From assembly GCF_900114835.1 (NCBI RefSeq), contig NZ_FOUJ01000002.1, positions 204,374-268,373 on the forward strand: a stretch of DNA of 64,000 bases, given 5' to 3'. Position 1 is the stretch's first letter. Each line of letters starts with the position of its first letter. A model generated the notes under the pieces. That model was not told the origin of the DNA. It searched no databases and was given only the letters and a program-made list of their open reading frames with translations. Shown in pieces: positions 21,258-33,818 of this stretch. This DNA is from Methanolobus profundi (GTDB lineage Archaea; Halobacteriota; Methanosarcinia; Methanosarcinales; Methanosarcinaceae). A program made the translations under genes and the position numbers.

Positions 21258-22286
21258 TCAGTGAATGCCACATTCATCGAATGTGAACTTCTCACAGACT
21301 TCAAGATAGTGTCCTGAGTTGTTATCGTGTTTCATCTTAGCAAGTTTCTGGATAAGGTCCATTCCTGGTTTTGGATCTTCCATGATCTCGACCTTGTCCT
21401 TTACAAGCTCGAACATCTTCTTGCCTACTTCTGTGCGTATGAGCACACAGTTCCAGCCATCTGGTGTACCGACAGATCCCAGTGATATATCTGCTGACAC
21501 TGAGGTGTAGTCACAACAGTTGTGGCATGGGTTCCTTGCGTAATGAGCTACTTCCGGGATCTTCACGCTGTGGGCTTCGCCGTCCTTTGTGTAGTTCCAG
21601 AATTTACCCTTACCGAAGTCCATCTTGACAACATCATCAAGGTCAAGTCCCATTACTTCAGGAACGATCTTCTCGGTCATGATGTCGTGATAGAAACTCT
21701 CCATACACAGGAGTCCAAGGATGACAACGATCTTATCGTTGTTATTCTCAAAGAGGAGACGTGCGCCGTGTGCCTGGCAGGGTACACCAATTACGCCTAT
21801 CTTATCATATTTCTCGAAAGGCTCTCTGAGTGCTGAAAGTACTGAATCGTAGGTATATTTGGTACCTGTAGTTCTGTCAACATCCTCCGGCTTGGTCATA
21901 ATGATAAGCTCAGTACCCCATTTACCATCCCTGGCGATACCGACAATACAATCTACCGTACCGGTCTCGAGCAAAGCTTTTGCCAGAATAGAGGTGACAC
22001 CACCGTCCTGACCTTGTATGGTACTCTTTGCTCCAAAGAACTCTTTCACGTTTGCAAATTCGTCTTCTTCATATCCGTCAATTACAGGACAGAGCCTTGC
22101 ACATGTGAGACATCCCTCACATACATTTGGTGCTGCACCTTTGACGTATAATTCTAAATTATCAGGGTCACGGACTTCTGCATGCTTGTTCATAACAATA
22201 GCACCTGCAGGACATGCTGAAACGCATGCCCCACAAGAAGTGCAGACGTCGTGCTCAATGACCTCTAATATTTTTGGATGGGCCAT
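21258..22286 (-). CDS. fpoF: F420H2 dehydrogenase subunit FpoF (FrhB family)
   Basis: The electron-input subunit that oxidises F420H2 and feeds the membrane Fpo complex. The N-terminus holds two [4Fe-4S] motifs, CTSCGACVSACP and CEGCLTCARLCP. The rest is an FrhB-type F420/FAD domain with GAKSTIQGQDGGVTSILAKA, TTGTKYTYDS, IGVPCQAHGARL and NPCHNCCDYTSVSADISLGS. The 342-residue length matches FpoF of Methanosarcina, where the gene also lies away from the main fpo cluster and beside mer. Other FrhB-like paralogues exist, so the specific name rests partly on context. Confidence 0.87.
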   Translation of the reverse strand: MAHPKILEVIEHDVCTSCGACVSACPAGAIVMNKHAEVRDPDNLELYVKGAAPNVCEGCLTCARLCPVIDGYEEDEFANVKEFFGAKSTIQGQDGGVTSILAKALLETGTVDCIVGIARDGKWGTELIIMTKPEDVDRTTGTKYTYDSVLSALREPFEKYDKIGVIGVPCQAHGARLLFENNNDKIVVILGLLCMESFYHDIMTEKIVPEVMGLDLDDVVKMDFGKGKFWNYTKDGEAHSVKIPEVAHYARNPCHNCCDYTSVSADISLGSVGTPDGWNCVLIRTEVGKKMFELVKDKVEIMEDPKPGMDLIQKLAKMKHDNNSGHYLEVCEKFTFDECGIH

Positions 22287-22313: not shown

Positions 22314-23678
<1,365 letters not shown>

Positions 23679-23918
23679 ATGAAATGCTATGAATGCGAAA
23701 AAGATGGAAAAGATAGCGATACAGTGGCTATCTGCATAATATGTGGGAGAGGGGTCTGTAAGGAACACCATGTCAGGGAGGAGACACCTGTATGGGAAGG
23801 TGAATACAGCATCAAACTCAAATGTGGAATGGGCATAGCCTGCGACTACAAAGATGTACAGCACTGGAAGAAAGTACTCTGTATGCCCTGCCATAAGGCA
23901 TTGGTTGATAATTACTAG
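23679..23918 (+). CDS. DUF2180 zinc-ribbon-like protein 1
   Basis: A small cysteine-rich protein of 79 residues matching the archaeal DUF2180 family of unknown function. Paired CxxC motifs are seen: MKCYECEKDGKDS, ICIICGRGVCKEH and VLCMPCHKA, suggesting one or two bound zinc ions. An upstream methionine is in frame, but the second gene of this type starts MKCYDC, so I place the start at 23679. It heads a run of same-strand redox genes reaching 29.9 kb. Confidence 0.8.
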   Translation: MKCYECEKDGKDSDTVAICIICGRGVCKEHHVREETPVWEGEYSIKLKCGMGIACDYKDVQHWKKVLCMPCHKALVDNY

Positions 23919-23929
23919 GTGATATCATG

Positions 23930-24145
23930 ATGAAATGTTATGACTGTATGGAAGAAGGAAAAGATTCAGAAGCCACCTGTGTCTGTATCACCTGCGGAAA
24001 AGGACTTTGTACCGATCACACAAAGGAACTGGAACTCCCTGTATCCGTAGGACAACCCCCTAACGTAGAGAGGCTTCCTAACGGACTGCCAAGAATACTG
24101 TGCAAATACTGTTTTGATCAGACAATTGAAGATTCATTTGACTGA
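23930..24145 (+). CDS. DUF2180 zinc-ribbon-like protein 2
   Basis: Paralogue of the preceding gene, 11 bases downstream. MKCYDCMEEGKDSEATCVC, ITCGKGLCTDH and ILCKYC carry the same cysteine pairs. An AGGTGA ribosome site at 23917-23922 is best spaced for the second of two adjacent ATGs (23930). It has 71 residues. The tandem copies look like a local duplication. Function is unknown; zinc binding is inferred from the cysteine pattern. Confidence 0.8.
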   Translation: MKCYDCMEEGKDSEATCVCITCGKGLCTDHTKELELPVSVGQPPNVERLPNGLPRILCKYCFDQTIEDSFD

Positions 24146-24174
24146 ACCTACCGGAAAATAAAGGAGGATAAATT

Positions 24175-24546
24175 ATGTGTGGAGAAGGAAAAGGTAAAGG
24201 ATGCGGACACAGAGAGATAATCGATGACATGTCCGATAAATTGGGATTCACACCCCAGATATTGGAGACGCTTGGAGAACTTGAACCTGAGTTCCTGCAC
24301 AAGTACAACATGTGCAACAACAAGATACTCAGTGATGGAGCACTTCCAGCTAAAACAAAGATATTGATGGCACTCGCTATCGTTGCATCAAAGCAGTGTG
24401 AACGCTGTGTGGCTTCACAGATGAAGAGTGCTCTGAAGAACGGAGCAACAAAGGAAGAGATCATGGAAACAATGGATGTAATTTTCATCACATCCGGAGC
24501 TCCTGCAGTTGCTGCATGTAGAGATGCACTTAAACATCTCAAATAA
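24175..24546 (+). CDS. AhpD-like carboxymuconolactone decarboxylase family protein
   Basis: 123 residues with the AhpD core [28 protein letters not shown], where the CERC pair is the redox-active CxxC of the family, then [19 protein letters not shown]. The usual His three residues after the second Cys is Gln here. Related proteins are peroxidase partners or small-thiol reductases in archaea. An AAAGGAGG ribosome site precedes the ATG. It lies between the DUF2180 pair and the cytochrome, in line with a redox-stress or electron-transfer operon. Confidence 0.87.
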
Positions 24547-24626
24547 GACATCCTGAAGGGGCCTTCCCGGTCCCTTTAGACCATTTACCATTTTACGATC
24601 ATAATAGTTCACTGAGAGGATAGGAT

Positions 24627-26054
24627 ATGTGGGGGACCATTTTAAAGGGCAGCTTGCTTTTTGTGGCAGCCATGTTGTTGTTATCAATGACAGGATGTTC
24701 TGCATACGCTACTGAAGCTACTGAGTTCGGAGAGTTATCATCTGACGATTTCACCTATGAGAGCAGATGCAGACAATGCCATGCGATCATCTATTCAGAC
24801 TGGGAAGGGACCATGCACTTCAACGCATATCTTGACCCGTTCTATCTGGAAGAGGTCAAAGTTGCAAGCGAGGACACTGATGGTCTTGTAGACGAGTTCT
24901 GTTCACGCTGCCACACACCCATAGGAGTTGTATCCGGCGAGATACCACCAATTGACGGATCAGAGATGAGCGATATCGCCAAACTTGGCGTCCAGTGTGA
25001 TTTCTGCCATGTGGTATCAGGAAGTAACGGAACCGGTAATGCACCTTTCACAGTCACCCCCGGAAACACTAAGTGGGGACCTTTTGACGATTCAAGGTCA
25101 GCCTATCACGACTCAGAATACCTGGAACTCTATACGCAGTCAGAATACTGCGGTATGTGCCATCTGGTCATACACCCGGTCAACGGACTTGTGATAGATG
25201 ATACATATACAAGCTGGCAAGAAAGCCAGTATGCAGAGGATGAGGTTGTTTGCCAGGACTGTCACATGACAGATGGTATCACAGAATTCGAAGCGAACCC
25301 CGGACGTGCAGGTTCGGGTGCACCTAAGAGAGAGCATATCTCATCACACGATATCGTTGGAGCTAATGCATTCATCCCACCAATGTTCGGTGCCAGCAGC
25401 GTAGCTGACATGGCAGTGGAAAGACTCCAGAGAGCCGCAACATTAGAAATTAGCACACCTGAGATAGCATCTGCCGGAGAAGAAGTAATGATCGAAGCTG
25501 CTATCACAAACTCAGGAGCAGGGCACAACATCCCAACCGGAGTATCAGAGATAAGGCAAATGTGGCTCGAAGTAGTTGTCACAGATAGCGAAGGCAATGA
25601 GATATACAATGCCGGAACCCTCGATGCTGACGGGAACATAGAAGAAGCAAAGATCATCTATAACAATGTTCTTGGAGATAGTAACGGCAGTGCCACAGAT
25701 AGTTTCTGGCTTGCTGACAGAGTGCTTGAGGACAACAGGATAGGACCAAAGGAAACAGTGACAGAAGAACATACATTCACACTTCCTGATAATGTGGCCT
25801 ATCCACTCACCGTGGAAACCAGCCTGAATTACAGATCAGCACCACAGTACATGATCGACCATCTGATGGGAGAAGATACTGAAGTACCTGTCATCAGTAT
25901 GAACAAGGAACTTGCGATCATTTACGACCCTTCAACACCAATAGATGAAAGAGGCCAGCCAAGGTCATCAGAAAGCACATCAACCCCTGGTTTTAGTGTC
26001 TTTATCGCATTGGCTGCTCTGAGTATTACGATGTATATATTCAAAAGAAAATAG
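24627..26054 (+). CDS. Pentaheme c-type cytochrome, surface-anchored
   Basis: 475 residues. An N-terminal hydrophobic segment (9-24), ending with a lipobox-like LSMTGC, exports the protein. Five CxxCH heme sites lie at residues 48-52, 92-96, 124-128, 175-179 and 209-213, with extra His in MHFNAY and SAYHDSEY as candidate axial ligands. The second half (about 265-440) is heme-free and beta-rich. The C-terminus has TPGF, a hydrophobic stretch and KRK, like a PGF-CTERM archaeosortase signal. It is therefore likely anchored outside the membrane. Methanosarcina has multiheme cytochromes tied to energy conservation and extracellular electron transfer; this one's partner is unknown. It is followed directly by ferredoxin and flavoprotein genes. 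Confidence 0.92.
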   Translation: MWGTILKGSLLFVAAMLLLSMTGCSAYATEATEFGELSSDDFTYESRCRQCHAIIYSDWEGTMHFNAYLDPFYLEEVKVASEDTDGLVDEFCSRCHTPIGVVSGEIPPIDGSEMSDIAKLGVQCDFCHVVSGSNGTGNAPFTVTPGNTKWGPFDDSRSAYHDSEYLELYTQSEYCGMCHLVIHPVNGLVIDDTYTSWQESQYAEDEVVCQDCHMTDGITEFEANPGRAGSGAPKREHISSHDIVGANAFIPPMFGASSVADMAVERLQRAATLEISTPEIASAGEEVMIEAAITNSGAGHNIPTGVSEIRQMWLEVVVTDSEGNEIYNAGTLDADGNIEEAKIIYNNVLGDSNGSATDSFWLADRVLEDNRIGPKETVTEEHTFTLPDNVAYPLTVETSLNYRSAPQYMIDHLMGEDTEVPVISMNKELAIIYDPSTPIDERGQPRSSESTSTPGFSVFIALAALSITMYIFKRK

Positions 26055-26071
26055 ACGGAGGAAATTAAAAA

Positions 26072-26263
26072 ATGCCACCAGTAGTAGACAAAAATAAATG
26101 TGAAGGAATCGGTGCATGTGCAGAAGCATGCCCAACAGATGTTATAGACATTGAGGAAGATGCGAACGGAGATCTCAGATCAGTTATCGCACGTCCTGAT
26201 GACTGTGTGGAATGTGGCAACTGTGTTGATGCCTGCCCACAGGAAGCAATAACAATAGACTAA
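26072..26263 (+). CDS. Small two-cluster ferredoxin lacking one cluster I cysteine
   Basis: 63 residues, cytoplasmic. Cluster II is canonical: C45-x2-C48-x2-C51-x3-C55-P. Cluster I reads C10-E-G-I13-G-A-C16-A-E-A-C20-P, with Ile where the second Cys should be, and the DNA (TGT GAA GGA ATC GGT GCA TGT) confirms it. Such sites often hold a [3Fe-4S] cluster, so a 7Fe ferredoxin is possible. It lies 17 bases after the cytochrome and 18 bases before the iron-sulfur flavoprotein, and so probably serves as their electron carrier. Confidence 0.9.
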   Translation: MPPVVDKNKCEGIGACAEACPTDVIDIEEDANGDLRSVIARPDDCVECGNCVDACPQEAITID

Positions 26264-26281
26264 CCAAACTGGAGTGACATT

Positions 26282-26902
26282 ATGTCCGATGACACCAGCA
26301 TCAAATTGCTCGGAATATCAGGTAGCCCGAGAAAAGGATCTACAGACTACGTTGTCAATGAAGCGCTCAGGTATGCACAAGAGAAGTACAACGTTGAAGT
26401 TGAGTATTTCTCTGCAAGAGCAAAGAACATGAAGTTCTGCATTCATTGCGATTATTGTGTCCGCAAGAAAGAAGGATGCGTACACAAGGATGATCTTGTT
26501 GAGCTCTATGACAAGATGCTCTGGGCAGATGCATGGATCATCGGTACTCCCGTTTACCAGGGTACATTAAGTGCCCAGACAAAGACAATTATGGACAGGT
26601 GCCGCGCAGTAGTTGCCCGAAACCCAAAAGCCTTCCTGAACAAGGTCGGTGCTGCAACAGCAGTTGGTGGTGACAGAGTAGGAGGACAGGAACCTGCAAT
26701 GCAGACCATCCATAACTTCTACATCATCAGTGAGATGATACCCATTGCAGGCGGATCTTTCGGTTCCAATCTGGGAGCCGCTTTCTGGTCGCAGGATAAA
26801 GGTGCCGAGGGTGCTGCAGAAGATTCAGAGGGTATAAGGACCCTTCACAGGACCGTGAACAAGATGATAAAGACCGCAATTGCGATGAAGAGTATCAAAT
26901 AA
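26282..26902 (+). CDS. Iron-sulfur flavoprotein (Isf family)
   Basis: 206 residues with a flavodoxin-like fold: LGISGSPRKGSTDYVV binds the FMN phosphate, and GTPVYQGTLSAQTKTIMDR is the second conserved block. A compact cysteine cluster C53-x2-C56-x2-C59-x6-C66 is the Isf hallmark and would ligate a [4Fe-4S] cluster. Methanosarcina Isf accepts electrons from ferredoxin and can reduce O2 or peroxide. Its place between ferredoxin and the FNR-like gene fits that chain. Confidence 0.88.
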   Translation: MSDDTSIKLLGISGSPRKGSTDYVVNEALRYAQEKYNVEVEYFSARAKNMKFCIHCDYCVRKKEGCVHKDDLVELYDKMLWADAWIIGTPVYQGTLSAQTKTIMDRCRAVVARNPKAFLNKVGAATAVGGDRVGGQEPAMQTIHNFYIISEMIPIAGGSFGSNLGAAFWSQDKGAEGAAEDSEGIRTLHRTVNKMIKTAIAMKSIK

Positions 26903-26914
26903 AGGGGTGCTCCA

Positions 26915-27613
26915 TTGAAATTTGAAGAACCTGTGACAGAGATTATACAGAGAGCATATAATGTGAAAAGTTTCAGGTTCAACAGACCGGAAGCTTTTGA
27001 CTTCAAAGCCGGACAGTACATTACGGTCACACTTGATAATAACGGGAAGAAGACAGGCAAACCTTTTACTATTTCTAGCAGTCCCACTGAGAGAGAACAC
27101 ATAGAGTTCACAAAGAAGCTCACTGGCCATGAATACTCGAACCTGCTGGATGCTATGGGGACAGGAGATACTGCACTCATAAGTGGTCCTTTCGGAAAGA
27201 TGACATTCGAAGGGGAGTATGAGAAGATAGCACTGCTCAGTGGTGGTATTGGTATTACTCCCATGATAAGCATCTGTAAATATGCAACTGATATGAAGCT
27301 AAGTACGGATATCATGCTCATCTGCAGCGATAAGACAGAGCAGGACATGGTGTTCACAGAAGAGCTTGAAGATATGAAAAAAGAAAATCCAAGGCTCTCG
27401 GTCTTCAATACCCTCACAAGAGCATCAGAGAACTGGAAAGGATGCAGGGACCGCATCTGCAGTAACATGATCGAGAGGGAAATACCAGATTACGCAGAAA
27501 GGATATTCTATGTATGCGGACCACCACCAATGGTGGATTCTATGATGGATATGCTCCACGAGATGAAGATACCTGACAGCATGATATACAAGGAATCGCT
27601 TACAGGATATTGA
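26915..27613 (+). CDS. FAD-dependent ferredoxin-reductase-like oxidoreductase
   Basis: 232 residues of the FNR superfamily. The FAD-binding barrel has FKAGQYITVTL and KPFTISSSPTEREHIEF; the NAD(P)-binding half has ALLSGGIGITPMIS and FYVCGPPPMVDSMMD. There is no C-terminal [2Fe-2S] domain, so it must pass electrons to a separate carrier. The start is TTG at 26915 with GGGG about eight bases before it; no ATG lies near. It is 12 bases after the Isf gene. Confidence 0.88.
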   Translation: MKFEEPVTEIIQRAYNVKSFRFNRPEAFDFKAGQYITVTLDNNGKKTGKPFTISSSPTEREHIEFTKKLTGHEYSNLLDAMGTGDTALISGPFGKMTFEGEYEKIALLSGGIGITPMISICKYATDMKLSTDIMLICSDKTEQDMVFTEELEDMKKENPRLSVFNTLTRASENWKGCRDRICSNMIEREIPDYAERIFYVCGPPPMVDSMMDMLHEMKIPDSMIYKESLTGY

Positions 27614-27645
27614 AGTGGAACTGAACTAAAGGAGGAAAAAAGATC

Positions 27646-28194
27646 ATGAAAAGAATAGCATGGGGAATTACCGGATCAGGAGATCTGATCAAAGAAACAT
27701 ATGATATAATGGTCGATATAAAGAAAAAGAGCAACATTGAGATCATGGTCTTCCTTTCAAAGGAAGGAGAGACCGTTATGAAATGGTATCACATGTGGAA
27801 TGACATACAGAAGGATTTCCCTAACTTCAAGACCGATGCAGGACCAAACTCACCATTTATAGCAGGACCCTTACAGGTAGGACACTATGATGCACTTATC
27901 ATTGCACCTACAACTGCGAATACCGTTGCAAAGATAGTCTATGGTATTGCAGACACTCTTGTTACCAATGCAGTTGCACAGACTGCAAAAGGAAGTACAC
28001 CGATCTACATCCTTCCTGTGGACCAGAAGAGAGGGACTGTAAAGACATACTCGCCTGAAGGCAGGGAAATGGTGCTTAAGATGCGTGAAGTTGATGTTAC
28101 AAATACTGAAAAGCTTGCGCAGATGGAAAATATAAGCATTCTGGAAAGACCAGATGATCTTTACGACCTTCTTGGCATCAGTAAGGATCAATAG
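27646..28194 (+). CDS. afpA: Archaeoflavoprotein AfpA
   Basis: 182-residue flavoprotein of the HFCD/Dfp-like fold. WGITGSGDLIKETYDIM opens it and ALIIAPTTANTVAKIVYGIADTLV is the FMN-binding core. This matches AfpA, described from Archaeoglobus as an FMN protein that receives electrons through ferredoxin and flavoprotein partners. The gene sits after ferredoxin, Isf and FNR-like genes in the same order of ideas. It is preceded by AAAGGAGG. Its final acceptor is not known. Confidence 0.87.
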   Translation: MKRIAWGITGSGDLIKETYDIMVDIKKKSNIEIMVFLSKEGETVMKWYHMWNDIQKDFPNFKTDAGPNSPFIAGPLQVGHYDALIIAPTTANTVAKIVYGIADTLVTNAVAQTAKGSTPIYILPVDQKRGTVKTYSPEGREMVLKMREVDVTNTEKLAQMENISILERPDDLYDLLGISKDQ

Positions 28195-28222
28195 ACCTTA
28201 AAACACATACGATCAAAGGGGA

Positions 28223-29857
28223 GTGGGGGATACATATGAAGGATATCGAGCTTATGCGCTCTTTTTTACCAGACCTGCTGGTGATGAGGAAAAGATAGTC
28301 CTGATGCTTAACAAGCTGCTTAAAAAGATAGACAGTAAAGAGAACGGCACCATTATTGGAAAAAAAGAAACTCTGGATTATGAGAAGCTTATGAGGGAGA
28401 CAAAGTTCCCCCATAGGATGAGCAATGAAACAGATGTTGGAGATTTTATTACCGGGCTTTACGAAGGTATAAACCTATGGAGCCACCCGCTTATGCAGTC
28501 AAACGTGGTGCCACCTGCCACAGCACTTTCAATTGTTGCAGATGCACTTGGTGCGAGATACAATGAGAACTCCATCAGTGACGACTATGGAGTGAGTGCG
28601 GCACGTTCTGAGATAATGGCAATAGCTATGCTTGCAGACCTTATAGGATATGATACGACAAAAGCTGGAGGTATCTTCACTTTTGGAGGAACAGGCTGCA
28701 ATCTTTATGGTGCACGCATAGGCATAGAGAAAGCAGACCCTAATGCGAAGAACACAGGTATAAGGGACAGGATACATTTCTTTTGCTCCGATGTTTCCCA
28801 TTACAGCATCAAATCTGCCGCCCTGTGGACAGGAGTAGGATTGGATAACGTAAAGACGATACCTTCGTATGATAACATAATGGATATCCATCTGCTTGAA
28901 GAAGAGATGGAAAAAACGATCAGTGAAGGTGCACGCATTGGAACGATATTTGCCACAATGGGGACTACAGATGCCTTTGGCATAGACCCTTTGAAGAAGA
29001 TAGTGGAATTACGCGACAGAATACAGAAAAAGCTGGATTACCGGATACACATACATGCCGATGCGGTTATTGGATGGCCATACCTGACATTCAGAGGAGA
29101 CACTTGTATCGATCACCTCCCACATATGTTACAGGAGGAGATCAGAGAGATCCTCTCAGGAATGAACGACCTTCAACATGCTGACTCAGTGGGCGTAGAC
29201 TTCCATAAGACCGGGTGGGCACCGTACCTGTGCAGTGCATTTGTGATAAAGGACAGAGAGGAACTTACCCTTCTCCAGAAGCAGAAAAAGGATATGCCAT
29301 ACCTGTTCCATGGCGAAGGTTACCAGCCAGGAACATTCACACTGGAATCAAGCAGACCGAATTATGCACAAAAAGCACTTGCAAATATGATGTTAATGGG
29401 GAAACAGGGATATGAGACCCTCATAGTACATCTGATCACTGCTGCTGACCATCTGAGGGAGATGATAGAGAACAGTCAGGATATTGACCTTCTTAACAGG
29501 CACAATCCAGCTTTTGTAACCGATCTTAGAATCTATCCCCACACAAAATATGACAGCGAAGGGAGATCATTGTTCCTGAAAGAGATGCGTGACGAAACTG
29601 AAAAGGAGTTCACGGAAAAGACAAATCTGTACAACAAAAGAATAGCGCAGTACATGATCGAAAAGGCACAACATGAAGGTACTGCTATGATATCCTATAC
29701 TGATAATTACAAGACAACGGGAGAGAACAGGGAGATAGTGGCGTTGAAGTCCTATCCTATGAGCCCATTTGTCGAAAAGGAACATATGGATGAAATGCTC
29801 AGGCAAATATACAAAGCAAAAGAATGGGTCGATACAAACTACGGATCTGAAGTATGA
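28223..29857 (+). CDS. Group II pyridoxal-phosphate-dependent decarboxylase
   Basis: 544 residues, longer than MfnA tyrosine decarboxylase (about 390). PLP-fold motifs are FTFGGTGCNLYGARIGIEKA, IFATMGTTDAFGIDPL, IHIHADAVIGWPYLTF with the Asp that pairs the cofactor, and SVGVDFHKTGWAPYLCSAF with the Schiff-base Lys. The start is GTG at 28223 in a G-rich run, which keeps an N-terminus (YEGYRAYALF) before the fold. It closes the plus-strand redox operon, 28 bases after afpA. The substrate is not predictable; glutamate, aspartate, diaminobutyrate or aromatic amino acids are all possible. Confidence 0.85.
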   Translation: MGDTYEGYRAYALFFTRPAGDEEKIVLMLNKLLKKIDSKENGTIIGKKETLDYEKLMRETKFPHRMSNETDVGDFITGLYEGINLWSHPLMQSNVVPPATALSIVADALGARYNENSISDDYGVSAARSEIMAIAMLADLIGYDTTKAGGIFTFGGTGCNLYGARIGIEKADPNAKNTGIRDRIHFFCSDVSHYSIKSAALWTGVGLDNVKTIPSYDNIMDIHLLEEEMEKTISEGARIGTIFATMGTTDAFGIDPLKKIVELRDRIQKKLDYRIHIHADAVIGWPYLTFRGDTCIDHLPHMLQEEIREILSGMNDLQHADSVGVDFHKTGWAPYLCSAFVIKDREELTLLQKQKKDMPYLFHGEGYQPGTFTLESSRPNYAQKALANMMLMGKQGYETLIVHLITAADHLREMIENSQDIDLLNRHNPAFVTDLRIYPHTKYDSEGRSLFLKEMRDETEKEFTEKTNLYNKRIAQYMIEKAQHEGTAMISYTDNYKTTGENREIVALKSYPMSPFVEKEHMDEMLRQIYKAKEWVDTNYGSEV

Positions 29858-29875
29858 TACTGCATGTGTTGTAGT

Positions 29876-30703
29876 TCAGAAAAAAGTATATCCTTCCACC
29901 ATATAGTTTTCCGGAAAACTATCGGGTCCCATTTCCAGTCTGGGAAGTGACCGGAAGGTAGAGTATACTGCAATTATGCTGTCAAGAGCGTCGCCTTCTG
30001 TATCTTGAATTGCTTTCTCCTGTAATGAGGAAGGGATCACAAGACCTTTGCCCAAAAAATATTCGAGTATACGAAGGCGGGCATTTTGCCTGTCATCCGT
30101 CTTGCCTTTATAAGGAATATACATCTCTTCTTTCTTCAGTCTGCATGCAGGACATATCTCTATAAGCCATGGCTTTTCACTCTTTGCTTTCTGCATCGGA
30201 AGAATACATGCAAGGTCATCCCTGACAAGAGGATGCAGGATATCCCTAATGCCAAAATAGGTCTGCCGGTATAATCTCAGATTATAGACTGAAAAAGGTA
30301 CCTTACTGCTTATCTCTGAGATACGTTTCAATTCCTTGCCGCCAGCCATACTCCGACATGACTCACGGAACTGTTCTGCAGATGGATATTTTGAAGGGAA
30401 GGACAGGACGAGATCCTCCCAGCTTTCCTCCATGAGAGGTTCAGGCAGGGAAAAGGAGAGGTCGATACCAAAAACCGCGTCTTTAGCATTAACAATGACA
30501 GACCTCAGTTCAGCAAGACATTCATCTCTCCCTGTAGAAGAGTTAACACCTGAGCCTACTATGTCTGCAAGCCGAAAACACTCATCGATGTGCAGAGTAT
30601 TACCTACAGGTCTCCCTCTGCTAACCCATATTTTCTTGCATGCGCTCTTTGCAGCGCTGAAGTCGATACCATAAATGCTGCTGCGCTTCTGAGGTATCGA
30701 CAT
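29876..30703 (-). CDS. DUF429 family protein (RNase H-like fold)
   Basis: 275 residues. The N-terminus YGIDFSAAKSACKKIWVSR and the internal FGIDLSFSLPEP resemble the beta-strand/Asp core of DUF429, a predicted RNase H-like fold of unknown role. CPACRLKKEEMYIPYKGK and GDALDSIIAVY near the C-terminus are also typical. It lies 14 bases after the stop of the inositol-phosphate synthase gene on the same strand, and is convergent with the PLP decarboxylase. A nuclease or phosphotransfer role is guesswork. Confidence 0.75.
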   Translation of the reverse strand: MSIPQKRSSIYGIDFSAAKSACKKIWVSRGRPVGNTLHIDECFRLADIVGSGVNSSTGRDECLAELRSVIVNAKDAVFGIDLSFSLPEPLMEESWEDLVLSFPSKYPSAEQFRESCRSMAGGKELKRISEISSKVPFSVYNLRLYRQTYFGIRDILHPLVRDDLACILPMQKAKSEKPWLIEICPACRLKKEEMYIPYKGKTDDRQNARLRILEYFLGKGLVIPSSLQEKAIQDTEGDALDSIIAVYSTFRSLPRLEMGPDSFPENYMVEGYTFF

Positions 30704-30717
30704 ATTAATATTGACTA

Positions 30718-31821
30718 TCAGTTGTCGCGCTGTCCTTTGATGAACTCGTCCGTCATGACGTGAGCCTCATCGTCTGTGAACTGCTTTGGCGGATGCTTCA
30801 TGAAATAGGATGAAGGTGAGTACAGGATACCGCCAATGCCTCTTTCAAGTGCAAGTTTACAACACCTTATAGCGTCTATGACCACACCTGCTGAGTTCGG
30901 AGAGTCCTCGACTGAAAGACGAAGCTCGATGTTCATTGGCACATCTCCGAAGAGCTTACCTTCCATTCTAAGGAAGCAGACCTTGTTGTCGTTCTGCCAT
31001 GGTACGTAGTCACTTGGACCTACATGGATGTTATCATCATCCATTCTCTGACCAACTACTGACTGGACCGCTTCGGTCTTGGATTCCTTCTTTGATGCAA
31101 GTCTGTTCCTGTTGAGCATGTTAAGGAAGTCAGTGTTACCGCCTGTGTTAAGCTGGTATGTCCTTTCCAGTTTCACACCACGTTTACGGAAAAGGTCTGC
31201 AAGTGTCCTGTGAGTGATGGTAGCACCTAGTTGTGCTTTTATATCGTCACCTATGACAGGGATACCTTTCTCCTCGAACTTTGCTGCCCATTCAGGGTCG
31301 CTGACAATAAAAACAGGCATGTTGTTAATGTATGCAACTCCTGCCTCAAGTGCACATTCTGCGTAGAAACGGGTCGCTTCCTCAGAGCCCACCGGAAGAT
31401 AGTTCAGCAGGATCTCTGCACCGGAATCCTTCAGCTCCTTTATTACGTCTTCTTTAGCGGATTCCTTTTCTGATGAAGGAATAAAGCTCCTGTTCTCGCT
31501 GTAGCCCGCCATGTGCTCAGAGACACCGTCAAGGATACATCCCATCTTTACGATAGTACCGGCCTTTGGCACCTCAGGGCAGAATACAGCAGTACAGTTA
31601 GGTGGTGCAAAGATAGCTTCTGATACGTCCGTTCCGACCTTCCTTTTGTCGATATCAAAAGCAGCGACTACCTCAATATCAAATGGTCTGTAACCTCCGA
31701 GATCCCAATGCATAAGGCCTATAGCATCGTTTTCATCTTTGTCCTTGTAATACTCAATGCCTTGTATCAGAGAACTTGCACAATTGCCAATACCCGCAAT
31801 TGCAATCTTGATCTTGTCCAT
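30718..31821 (-). CDS. ino1: Inositol-1-phosphate synthase
   Basis: NAD-dependent cyclisation of glucose 6-phosphate to inositol 1-phosphate, used for archaeal phosphatidylinositol lipids and inositol solutes. The Rossmann motif IAIAGIGNCASSLIQGIEYY begins the protein. GDDIKAQLGATITHRTLADL and QLNTGGNTDFLNML are the catalytic and NAD-contact blocks, and EDSPNSAGVVIDAIRCCKLA is the C-terminal signature. The 367 residues match the short archaeal/actinobacterial form. It heads a two-gene unit with the DUF429 gene. Confidence 0.94.
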   Translation of the reverse strand: MDKIKIAIAGIGNCASSLIQGIEYYKDKDENDAIGLMHWDLGGYRPFDIEVVAAFDIDKRKVGTDVSEAIFAPPNCTAVFCPEVPKAGTIVKMGCILDGVSEHMAGYSENRSFIPSSEKESAKEDVIKELKDSGAEILLNYLPVGSEEATRFYAECALEAGVAYINNMPVFIVSDPEWAAKFEEKGIPVIGDDIKAQLGATITHRTLADLFRKRGVKLERTYQLNTGGNTDFLNMLNRNRLASKKESKTEAVQSVVGQRMDDDNIHVGPSDYVPWQNDNKVCFLRMEGKLFGDVPMNIELRLSVEDSPNSAGVVIDAIRCCKLALERGIGGILYSPSSYFMKHPPKQFTDDEAHVMTDEFIKGQRDN

Positions 31822-32100: not shown

Positions 32101-32589
32101 ATGAAAGATATACTACATGAGATCGCAGAGGAGCTTGATCACCTTGGATCATTGGATGAAGCTATCGGCCTGGCAATAGAGCTTGAAGAAGAGGGGATGC
32201 AATATTACAGCGAGAAGGCGTCCGTAATGAAGAACGAGACAGCCAGCAAACTATACATATTCCTTGCTGATGAAGAAAAGAAGCATGCAGGATACCTCAA
32301 GCAATACAGGGAAAGCAAGAACATCCCTGAAGTTGATTTCAAATATCCTAAGTTCGAAGCATCGTTCACAGAGGAGTTCTCAGATGAGAAACTTGAGGAG
32401 ATAGGCATACTCCTTGCAGCACTCAGGTTCGAGCACAAGAGCGAATACTTTTACACAGAGCTTGCAAAAAGGGCAGAGGATGATGAGCAACGTGCATTCT
32501 TCGAGAAGGTTGCTGCTGCTGAGCGGGGACACTACATGATAATCGATGAATTACTGGGGTCTGCTACCGAGTTTAGAATGCAGACATAA
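32101..32589 (+). CDS. Ferritin-like / rubrerythrin-type diiron protein
   Basis: 162 residues. Two helix-bundle motifs carry the diiron ligands: ELEEEGMQYYSEKA with FLADEEKKHAGYLKQY (the first E...ExxH set), and RFEHKSEYFYTELA with AAAERGHYMIIDEL (the second). No rubredoxin domain is present. Such proteins reduce peroxide or store iron in anaerobes. A TTAAAGGAG ribosome site precedes the ATG. It is the first gene of an oxygen-defence run with the F420H2 oxidase 17 bases downstream. Confidence 0.87.
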   Translation: MKDILHEIAEELDHLGSLDEAIGLAIELEEEGMQYYSEKASVMKNETASKLYIFLADEEKKHAGYLKQYRESKNIPEVDFKYPKFEASFTEEFSDEKLEEIGILLAALRFEHKSEYFYTELAKRAEDDEQRAFFEKVAAAERGHYMIIDELLGSATEFRMQT

Positions 32590-32606
32590 TTCAGGGAGAG
32601 AGCATA

Positions 32607-33818
32607 ATGGATGATCACAAACCACTTGAGCTTGCCAAAGGGATATACTGGGTAGGTGTGGTTGACTGGAACCTGAGAGATTTCCACGGATATGAGACAC
32701 CAAAAGGTGGAAGCTATAATGCATACCTCATCGTCGACGAGAAGATCGCACTCATTGACACCGTAAAGGCACCTTTTGCAGGCGAGATGCTCAACCGTAT
32801 AGAGCAGATAGTCGACCCTTCAAAGATAGACTATGTTATCTCGAACCATGTTGAAATGGACCATTCAAGTTCCATATCCACGATAATGAAGGTAGCCCCT
32901 AAAGCAAAGTTGTTTACATCATCCAAGGGACAGACAGGCCTTTCTGAATATTATAAAGAGGAAGGTTTTGATGACTGGGACCTGAACACGGTCAAGACCG
33001 GAGATGAACTGAGCCTCGGGGAGAGGACACTCATGTTCATCGAAGCTACTATGCTGCACTGGCCTGACAGTATGCAGACATATGTCAAGGAAGACAAGAT
33101 ACTCCTTTCCAATGACGCATTCGGACAGCATGTCGCAACCTCCAAGCGCTTTGATGATGAGGTTGATGACGTAATGGATGATGCCGAGATATACTACGCC
33201 AATATCCTCCTGCCATTCAGCTCCCAGGTCCTCAAGTACATAGAGAAGCTCAAAGAGCTCAATGTCGAGCCAGAGATGATAGCTCCTGGACATGGTATCA
33301 TCTGGAGAAAGGATGTTGCCAGAGTTATCGAAGAATACGGCAGATGGGCCAGAGGTGAAGCGACCCCGAAGGTCATAGTGATCTATGATACAATGTGGGG
33401 AAGTACAGAGAAGATGGCAATGGAGATCATTGAGGGAGCAAGGTCAGCTGGTGTCGAAGTTAGATTGAGGCATCTGCGCAAGAACGACTGGAGCCTTACT
33501 ATGAAAGAGCTTATGGATGCATCCGTAGTCGCCCTAGGTTCACCTACGATGAACAATGGTATGTTCTTCACAGTAGCCGGATTCCTTGCCTACATGAAGG
33601 GACTGAGGCCAAAGGGCAAGAAATTCTTCCTGTTCGGATCATACGGATGGGGAGGCGGAGCTGTCAAGGGAATGGAGAAAGAACTTGAGAGTGGCAGGTT
33701 CGAACTTGCCATGGAGAGCATGCAGATAAAATTCAGACCCTTTGAAGATGACAAGAAGGCTTGCAGAGAGATAGGTTACAAGCTTGCAGAAATAGCAAAA
33801 GAGAATGCAAGATCTTAA
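32607..33818 (+). CDS. fprA: F420H2 oxidase (flavodiiron protein FprA)
   Basis: Reduces O2 to water with F420H2. The N-terminal metallo-beta-lactamase-like domain has the diiron ligands in SNHVEMDHSSSIS, EATMLHWPDSMQ and APGHGIIW. The C-terminal flavodoxin domain (from about residue 255) begins VIVIYDTMWGSTEKMAM and has SPTMNNGMFF and FGSYGWGGGAVK. The 403-residue length is typical of methanogen FprA. It sits between the ferritin-like and FTR genes, in a set that handles oxygen and disulfide stress. Confidence 0.94.
   Translation: MDDHKPLELAKGIYWVGVVDWNLRDFHGYETPKGGSYNAYLIVDEKIALIDTVKAPFAGEMLNRIEQIVDPSKIDYVISNHVEMDHSSSISTIMKVAPKAKLFTSSKGQTGLSEYYKEEGFDDWDLNTVKTGDELSLGERTLMFIEATMLHWPDSMQTYVKEDKILLSNDAFGQHVATSKRFDDEVDDVMDDAEIYYANILLPFSSQVLKYIEKLKELNVEPEMIAPGHGIIWRKDVARVIEEYGRWARGEATPKVIVIYDTMWGSTEKMAMEIIEGARSAGVEVRLRHLRKNDWSLTMKELMDASVVALGSPTMNNGMFFTVAGFLAYMKGLRPKGKKFFLFGSYGWGGGAVKGMEKELESGRFELAMESMQIKFRPFEDDKKACREIGYKLAEIAKENARS

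Follow-up and report, generated by a model that had tools for sequence, protein, structure and literature searches.

A Methanolobus gene block encoding an exported pentaheme cytochrome is probably a form of the Methanosarcinales oxidant-defence operon

Introduction

Multihaem cytochromes of methanogens and ANME archaea are usually interpreted as electron-export machinery. In Methanosarcina, the exported cytochrome MmcA (MA0658) is a heptaheme protein encoded by the first gene of the rnf operon (PMC11024163), and published work found it to be required for AQDS reduction. M. acetivorans also carries MA4664/MA3734-3743, described as a putative oxidative-stress operon that includes the FpaA homologue MA3743 (PMC3729527). 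Published data show a rise of its five-heme cytochrome, MA3739, by 4.1-fold (about fourfold) during AQDS respiration and by 80% in an mmcA mutant, as well as a higher level in cells grown by DIET. Deletion of MA3739 left AQDS reduction (PMC6703419) and electron uptake from Fe(0) (PMC10989991) unchanged, and reportedly had no effect on DIET (per PMC10989991). In the literature on this M. acetivorans operon, we found neither an oxidant phenotype nor induction by O2. Here we describe the corresponding locus of Methanolobus profundi.

Results

Gene content of the Methanolobus block

The window, a stretch of 64,000 nucleotides, contains nine same-strand ORFs at 23679-29857 separated by gaps of about 8-80 bp. 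Their products were labelled by Pfam/NCBIfam profile scans, which upheld nearly all of the labels given by a first-pass annotation, including those of AfpA and of an FNR-like enzyme devoid of its own Fe-S domain. That annotation closed the cluster at 29857, but the conserved unit resumes 2.2 kb further on with genes for rubrerythrin and FprA (32101-33818), on the same strand and in the same order as the operon, two reverse-strand genes intervening. The features of the locus are as follows:

21258..22286, - strand: conserved divergent upstream neighbour, which we take to be FrhB/FpoF-like
22314..23294, - strand: conserved divergent upstream neighbour, presumably mer-like
23502..23517, + strand: candidate promoter region (ACCG.TACAGATATAT), the best-conserved upstream block in an alignment of 26 upstream regions
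23679..23918, + strand: DUF2180 protein 1 (D1), small, Cys/His-rich, zinc-finger-like (PF09947, 1.2e-22)
23930..24145, + strand: DUF2180 protein 2 (D2; PF09947, 7e-22)
24175..24546, + strand: AhpD/CMD-like protein with a CxxC motif, C75 and C78 (PF02627, 6.4e-19)
24627..26054, + strand: exported pentaheme cytochrome c with five CxxCH motifs, an N-terminal signal region and a C-terminal PGF-CTERM-like anchor
26072..26263, + strand: two-cluster ferredoxin (Fd) of 63 aa with two motifs, lacking Cys-2 of motif I
26282..26902, + strand: Isf-type iron-sulfur flavoprotein, FMN-reductase/Isf-like (PF03358, 6e-34)
26915..27613, + strand: FNR-like FAD/NAD(P) oxidoreductase (PF00175 and PF00970, no Fe-S domain match)
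27646..28194, + strand: archaeoflavoprotein AfpA (TIGR02699, 275.7 bits against a cut-off of 192.45; PDB 3wis/4mwg)
28223..29857, + strand: PLP-dependent decarboxylase (Pyridoxal_deC, PF00282), an accessory insert
29876..30703, - strand: gene separating both halves, present in two divergent versions within the genus, presumably for a DUF429-like protein
30718..31821, - strand: second gene separating both halves, which we assume to be inositol-phosphate-synthase-like
32101..32589, + strand: rubrerythrin-family protein without a rubredoxin domain (PF02915, 1.1e-10; synteny), in the downstream half of the syntenic unit
32607..33818, + strand: flavodiiron protein FprA, candidate F420H2 oxidase (PDB 1ycf, 1.4e-121; 2ohh FprA, 4.2e-91)

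The block is orthologous to the M. acetivorans operon

The Methanolobus block proved orthologous to MA4664/MA3734-3743, whose gene order was also seen in locus L193 (presumed M. acetivorans). It contains the core of the Methanosarcina operon, namely the DUF2180 pair, AhpD-like protein, pentaheme cytochrome, Isf and AfpA, in order; rubrerythrin and FprA are likewise shared and co-ordered, and both operons lie downstream of divergent Mer/FrhB-like/NMNAT-like genes. In contrast, the Methanolobus version lacks superoxide reductase (SOR), has an extra ferredoxin and FNR, has rubrerythrin-FprA split off by the two reverse-strand genes and, in some strains, has gained the PLP decarboxylase. The first-pass annotation mentioned comparable neighbourhoods in Methanosarcina and knew of no assigned function for the whole set, whereas one has already been proposed there (oxidative-stress operon, PMC3729527).

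Across 22 Methanolobus loci on long contigs, the order D1-D2-Ahp-(cytochrome or remnant)-Fd-Isf-FNR-AfpA was kept without exception, and variant forms occur throughout the family, indicating that the arrangement is not due to chance. This survey, which had been proposed earlier as a check, found the genes conserved in order rather than scattered among relatives. Rubrerythrin and FprA were syntenic in all 22 loci. The PLP decarboxylase, although present here and listed earlier as a member, was rejected as a core component, as it occupies this place in only four of the 22.

Within the family, SOR lies upstream of the cytochrome in the operon of Methanosarcina and g4 loci, and rubrerythrin lies between FNR and AfpA in Methanococcoides/Methanohalobium-type loci. 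Both Fd and FNR are missing from the Methanosarcina locus, and Fd from Methanococcoides-type loci; hence the previously suggested chain from FNR through ferredoxin to Isf/AfpA is plausible in Methanolobus but not general. The cytochrome is dispensable: two Methanolobus retain its gene as a pseudogene remnant and some Methanosarcina lack it, while the flavoproteins are kept.

The cytochrome resembles a bacterial pentaheme protein

The cytochrome has a c554-type N-terminal domain and is the orthologue of MA3739; its AF2 model has a pLDDT of 91.3. Its best match in both sequence and fold is the penta-heme cytochrome c552 of Thermochromatium tepidum (5ze8), with which it shares five haems, the N-terminal domain and a C-terminal beta domain with an H-x-x-P-T-G loop, although c552 is bacterial and the match is limited to 17% identity and a TMq of 0.56. 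A partial profile match over residues 114-408 links it to ExtKL/MccSep (NF040886; 9wt8, 9wt9), which have a GH-x-I-P-x-G loop in common with it; residue 325 of MccSep, selenocysteine judging from the mutant name U325A, aligns with Val306. Membership of ExtKL was rejected, since the NF040886 score of 64 bits falls below the cut-off of 250. Among 59 sequences, four His residues outside the CxxCH motifs (H64, H161, H241 and H300) are invariant, four for five haems. Judged by conservation, one haem possibly lacks a conserved distal His and would be open.

Small proteins and soluble carriers

For DUF2180 protein 1, C3, C6, C19, C22, C27, H30, C68 and C71 are invariant in 36 sequences. The AF2 model (pLDDT 77) gave no significant fold match in the PDB, matches to zinc-finger structures being weak. 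In locus L163, a DUF2180 gene is flanked by a DUF2193 gene on one side and, on the other, by a MIP gene (both by Pfam), and the surroundings in L174 and L177 look similar by eye. Because of these other settings, DUF2180 alone is not a marker of oxidant defence.

The AhpD active site is CxxCxxxH. In the AhpD-like protein, whose closest solved structure is AhpD 5dik, both Cys of the CxxC are conserved (76 sequences), but the active-site His was not found, Gln82 standing there in at least 95% of the 76. The ferredoxin, already described as unusual, lacks the second Cys of motif I in all 47 homologues and is predicted to be of the [3Fe-4S]/[4Fe-4S], i.e. 7Fe, type. Isf proteins are defined by a compact C-x2-C-x2-C-x4-7-C motif in an FMN-reductase fold; here, C53-x2-C56-x2-C59-x6-C66 is conserved in 74 sequences and accompanied by PF03358. 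The FNR-like protein matched NADH-cytochrome b5 reductase and sulfhydrogenase gamma in the PDB.

The downstream pair belongs to the rubrerythrin and FprA F420H2 oxidase families. FprA, the sole full-length copy found in a genome search, has beta-lactamase-like diiron and flavodoxin domains, aligns near full-length with 1ycf and 2ohh, and is closest in the PDB to Moorella FprA; from its sequence, it is a candidate user of F420H2 as donor.

Regulation

Control by the redox regulator MsvR was rejected, as its motif (TTCGN7-9CGAA) was absent from every D1 upstream region scanned and MaMsvR does not bind the operon promoter regions of M. acetivorans in EMSA (PMC3729527). One isolated match was seen upstream of rubrerythrin in L056, and no recurrent motif was common to the D1 and rubrerythrin upstream regions.

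Related archaeal cytochromes mostly lie beside oxidant-removing genes

We next considered cytochrome loci outside the family, scoring SOR, flavodiiron protein (FDP), rubrerythrin, catalase or peroxiredoxin genes within 8 kb of the cytochrome. Such neighbours were found at 15 of 17 archaeal loci (ANME-1, Methanolliviera, Methanoperedens) versus 4 of 35 bacterial homologues. ANME-1 locus L111 combines a Fur-family regulator, a rubrerythrin-like protein, the cytochrome, SOR, catalase, AhpC/Prx, flavodoxin and FDP, and in Methanoperedens the cytochrome gene is divergent from FprA. An orphan surface cytochrome beside genes removing O2 or superoxide in nearly all related archaea examined is a new observation, and it favours oxidant defence over electron export.

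Discussion

The block is likely the Methanolobus form of a Methanosarcinales oxidant-defence operon, in which the pentaheme cytochrome would be the extracytoplasmic arm. This reading is based on the linkage to rubrerythrin, FprA, SOR, catalase and peroxiredoxin across archaea, which also lends weight to the peroxide/oxygen detoxification offered earlier as a fallback; on the published oxidative-stress operon and the silence of the MA3739 deletion for AQDS and Fe(0); and on the four invariant His for five haems. Against it, neither an oxidant phenotype nor O2 induction was found in the literature on the operon, MaMsvR does not bind the M. acetivorans promoter regions and its motif was absent from the D1 upstream regions scanned, the upregulation of MA3739 is as would be expected of an electron-transfer protein, and in Methanolobus rubrerythrin-FprA forms a transcription unit of its own, no motif having been found in common between the two upstream regions.

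In the proposed mechanism, O2 would be reduced in the cytoplasm by FprA and Isf, and peroxide by rubrerythrin, Isf and the AhpD-like protein, with electrons drawn from F420H2, from the ferredoxin, predicted to be of the 7Fe type, and from NAD(P)H via the FNR-like enzyme. A role as thiol/zinc redox switches is possible for the DUF2180 proteins. The cytochrome, exported and anchored in the membrane, would be an optional extracytoplasmic arm. Most likely it takes electrons from the membrane pool and hands them to O2 or peroxide on the outer face of the cell, perhaps at the haem without a conserved distal His; alternatively, it would accept electrons from superoxide.

A dedicated superoxide oxidase or sink, passing electrons from extracellular superoxide to the membrane chain and complementing an adjacent SOR, appears unlikely. 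c-type cytochromes oxidise superoxide in vitro, SOR directly adjoins the cytochrome at Methanosarcina, g4 and ANME-1 loci and at some ANME-2-like ones, and those Methanosarcina loci that lack the cytochrome gene also lack the genes for SOR and the AhpD-like protein. However, the Methanolobus cluster contains no SOR, the single match in the genome being at C7:163343.

The cytoplasm-to-surface electron module that headed the first-pass annotation is not supported, and we consider quite improbable an extracellular electron transfer in which soluble carriers would feed the surface cytochrome and this would reduce humics or Fe(III), or pass electrons to an electrode or a partner cell. The cytochrome is exported and multihaem, has a surface-anchor-like tail (tail survey and archaeosortase search) and is distantly related to ExtKL, and its orthologue responds to AQDS, DIET and mmcA loss. 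Yet the MA3739 deletion is silent for AQDS (PMC6703419), Fe(0) and, reportedly, DIET (PMC10989991), the operon encodes no membrane-spanning electron conduit, the carriers persist where the cytochrome is lost, and its neighbours detoxify oxidants. The mutant data, cytochrome loss and neighbourhood led us to reject electron export as the main function. An MmcA-type conduit was likewise discarded, as the cytochrome has five CxxCH and the adjoining ORFs are not rnf.

Mending of Fe-S clusters or handling of sulfur species after oxidation is highly improbable. In its favour, TusA-like, DsrE, IscS-like and NifU-TrxR genes come after the cytochrome at g4 and ANME-2-like loci, and a sulfite-reductase-like gene lies near the ANME-1 cluster. 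Against it, the operon versions of Methanolobus, Methanosarcina and Methanococcoides have none of these genes, which look like a lineage-specific addition.

Returning to oxidant defence, we judge the chances even that archaeal MA3739-type pentaheme cytochromes form an extracytoplasmic oxidant-defence family instead of serving extracellular electron transfer. As proposed, this family would span Methanosarcinaceae, ANME-1/Methanolliviera, ANME-2-like archaea and Methanoperedens, and would remove O2, peroxide or superoxide at the surface before entry, alongside cytoplasmic SOR, rubrerythrin and flavodiiron enzymes. Not every multihaem cytochrome of ANME archaea or methanogens should be taken as evidence of extracellular electron transfer. 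The genes for removal of oxygen and superoxide that recur beside it in several archaeal families, together with the silent electron-transfer tests of MA3739, give this orphan cytochrome a directly testable role, one that bears on how some methanogens survive exposure to oxygen.

Gene content and limits of the operon

All nine genes described in the first-pass annotation as closely spaced on one strand were found as ORFs on the + strand at 23679-29857, with intergenic gaps of about 8-80 bp, in a source genome of 3.1 Mb in 18 contigs, where the window spans positions 204374-268373 of its contig. Profile searches backed most of the gene names that had been proposed.

Genes of the operon and its continuation
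+ strand: DUF2180 proteins, two copies (profile search)
+ strand: CMD/AhpD-like protein (profile search)
24627-26054, + strand: cytochrome with five CxxCH and a c554-type domain (profile search)
+ strand: two-motif ferredoxin (profile search)
+ strand: Isf-like flavoprotein (profile search)
+ strand: FNR-like FAD/NAD(P) protein, no Fe-S domain match, as annotated (profile search)
+ strand: AfpA (profile score over the TIGR02699 cut-off)
From 28223, + strand: PLP decarboxylase, ninth ORF (profile search)
29876-31821, reverse strand: two genes between the operon and the rubrerythrin-FprA pair
32101-33818: rubrerythrin-family gene, then flavodiiron FprA

The ferredoxin, which had been called unusual, is indeed odd: across 47 homologues motif I reads C-x5-C-x3-CP, lacking the second Cys, and motif II is complete, which leads us to predict a [3Fe-4S]/[4Fe-4S] protein. 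The limits 23679-29857 held for the nine ORFs and missed the rubrerythrin-FprA continuation at 32101-33818, which occupies the same place in 22 of 22 Methanolobus loci with long contigs. This FprA is the only full-length copy found in the genome (other PF19583 matches lie in ORFs of 217-242 aa), and its best solved-structure matches are 1ycf, 1e5d and 2ohh, which are Moorella FprA, Desulfovibrio rubredoxin:oxygen oxidoreductase and Methanothermobacter FprA, respectively.

Divergent Mer-, FrhB/FpoF- and NMNAT-like genes lie upstream, a setting that Methanolobus and most other members of the family share; the flanking labels mer, FpoF/FrhB, NMNAT, DUF429 and inositol-phosphate synthase are our own, assigned by reading the sequences. 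Some 170 bp ahead of the first DUF2180 gene, a block, ACCG.TACAGATATAT (23502-23517), is strongly conserved across Methanolobus.

Of 22 Methanolobus loci, 4 carry the PLP decarboxylase (the window, L054, L055 and L061). The DUF429-like gene of the latter three, and of L063, which lacks the decarboxylase, is the window version (69-75% identity, 43-51% in the remaining loci), suggesting that a PLP-DUF429 cassette has been exchanged at the operon's end (28223-30703).

Oxidant-removal genes recur beside the cytochrome

A synteny survey of cytochrome loci, a check proposed in the first-pass annotation, revealed oxidant-removal genes recurring beside the cytochrome in arrangements that vary by group. 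The operon is a Methanolobus variant of the known Methanosarcina operon, ordered D1-D2-AhpD-SOR-cytochrome-Isf-AfpA-rubrerythrin-FprA (D1 and D2, DUF2180 pair; SOR, superoxide reductase). Gene order in Methanosarcina locus L193, which we take to be M. acetivorans C2A, agrees with the published M. acetivorans gene numbers. Methanococcoides/Methanohalobium-type loci are without the ferredoxin, and a rubrerythrin with a rubredoxin domain sits between FNR and AfpA. In g4, a genus-level group of Methanosarcinaceae, SOR precedes the cytochrome, TusA-like, DsrE, IscS-like and NifU-TrxR genes follow it, and rubrerythrin lies further down; ANME-2-like loci are ordered AhpD-(SOR)-cytochrome-TusA-IscS-NifU/TrxR. 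The TusA-like, DsrE, IscS-like and NifU-thioredoxin-reductase genes, seen after the cytochrome in L034, L037, L039, L043, L044 and L102 of these two groups, are possibly an Fe-S/sulfur repair add-on.

SOR adjoins the cytochrome in most ANME-1/Methanolliviera loci, and Pfam matches around the ANME-1 cytochrome of L111 comprise a Fur-family regulator, rubrerythrin-like protein, SOR, catalase, AhpC/Prx, flavodoxin and flavodiiron protein (FDP). This oxidant-defence island (L111, 3998-13650) also includes a small sulfite-reductase-like gene. FprA and cytochrome are divergent in Methanoperedens L120, L123 and L125, and FprA was seen only as a 57-aa fragment in L124.

We read the gene set as probably an oxidant-defence operon, in line with the peroxide/oxygen detoxification option of the first-pass annotation. 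Outside Methanosarcinaceae, 15 of the 17 archaeal loci had SOR, rubrerythrin, FDP, catalase or peroxiredoxin within 8 kb of the cytochrome (one of the two negative loci has just 1.2 and 3.6 kb of flank); among bacterial homologues the count was 4 of 35. The source genome has about six genes of these kinds in 3.1 Mb, which gives a rough expectation of a few percent for a stretch of that size. Methanosarcinaceae, ANME-1/Methanolliviera and Methanoperedens each form one group in the cytochrome tree (SH-aLRT 82, 97 and 100, by a quick method). Because arrangements differ between these groups, the association is more than a single frozen operon, although loci of one family are not independent.

The DUF2180 pair and AhpD-like gene also occur by themselves in the Methanosarcina family (L199, L200, L202 and L204), without other operon genes or Mer/FrhB-like neighbours in the stretches covered. 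In a distant archaeon (L163), DUF2180 has a DUF2193 gene on one side and a MIP/aquaporin gene on the other, and in L174 and L177 it lies between genes resembling those of L163; DUF2180 thus has a second, unrelated-looking context in more distant archaea.

Flavoproteins without the cytochrome

In two Methanolobus loci (L073 and L074) the cytochrome is a short C-terminal remnant and all other operon genes are intact. Furthermore, Methanosarcina L195-L197 carry D1-D2-Isf-AfpA-rubrerythrin, with SOR, AhpD-like gene and cytochrome absent as one block; FprA was located in one of these three loci. Judged by gene content, the flavoproteins are independent of the cytochrome. Isf itself reportedly reacts with O2 and H2O2, according to Cruz and Ferry in 2006.

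The M. acetivorans counterpart, MA4664/MA3734-3743, has been termed a putative oxidative-stress operon; MA3743 is a homologue of FpaA (F420H2 oxidase), and MaMsvR does not bind the promoter regions (PMC3729527). Expression of MA3739, the cytochrome orthologue, rises 4.1-fold with AQDS, and its deletion leaves AQDS reduction unchanged (PMC6703419). MA3739 is higher in DIET-grown cells (PMC8546582) and up 80% upon loss of mmcA (PMC11024163). Fe(0) use is unchanged without it, and the same study reports that none of the cytochromes concerned, MA3739 included, was needed for DIET (PMC10989991).

The cytochrome as a candidate extracytoplasmic arm

The closest named relatives of the window cytochrome are from Methanolobus. 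Its N terminus has a hydrophobic region and its C terminus a PGF-CTERM-like tail, a tail borne by 88 of 100 homologues; the window protein itself did not reach the Pfam PGF-CTERM model. Archaeosortase A is encoded in the genome. The AF2 prediction (five models, pLDDT 91) best matched the T. tepidum penta-heme c552 (5ze8, E 9e-19, TMq 0.56).

Four His outside CxxCH (H64, H161, H241 and H300) are invariant among 59 sequences down to 38% identity; with five haems, one haem therefore lacks a universally conserved distal His. A five-coordinate haem is known from Nitrosomonas c554 (haem 2). This pattern of His conservation hints that the cytochrome may hold a reactive haem. In the alignment, the position of MccSep selenocytochrome residue 325, taken as Sec from the mutant name U325A, is Val306 in the window protein and not Sec; it lies in a loop also found in that family.

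The best current reading, to which we give about an even chance, is that the cytochrome forms the extracytoplasmic arm of the oxidant-defence operon, where it would either reduce O2/peroxide or oxidise superoxide.
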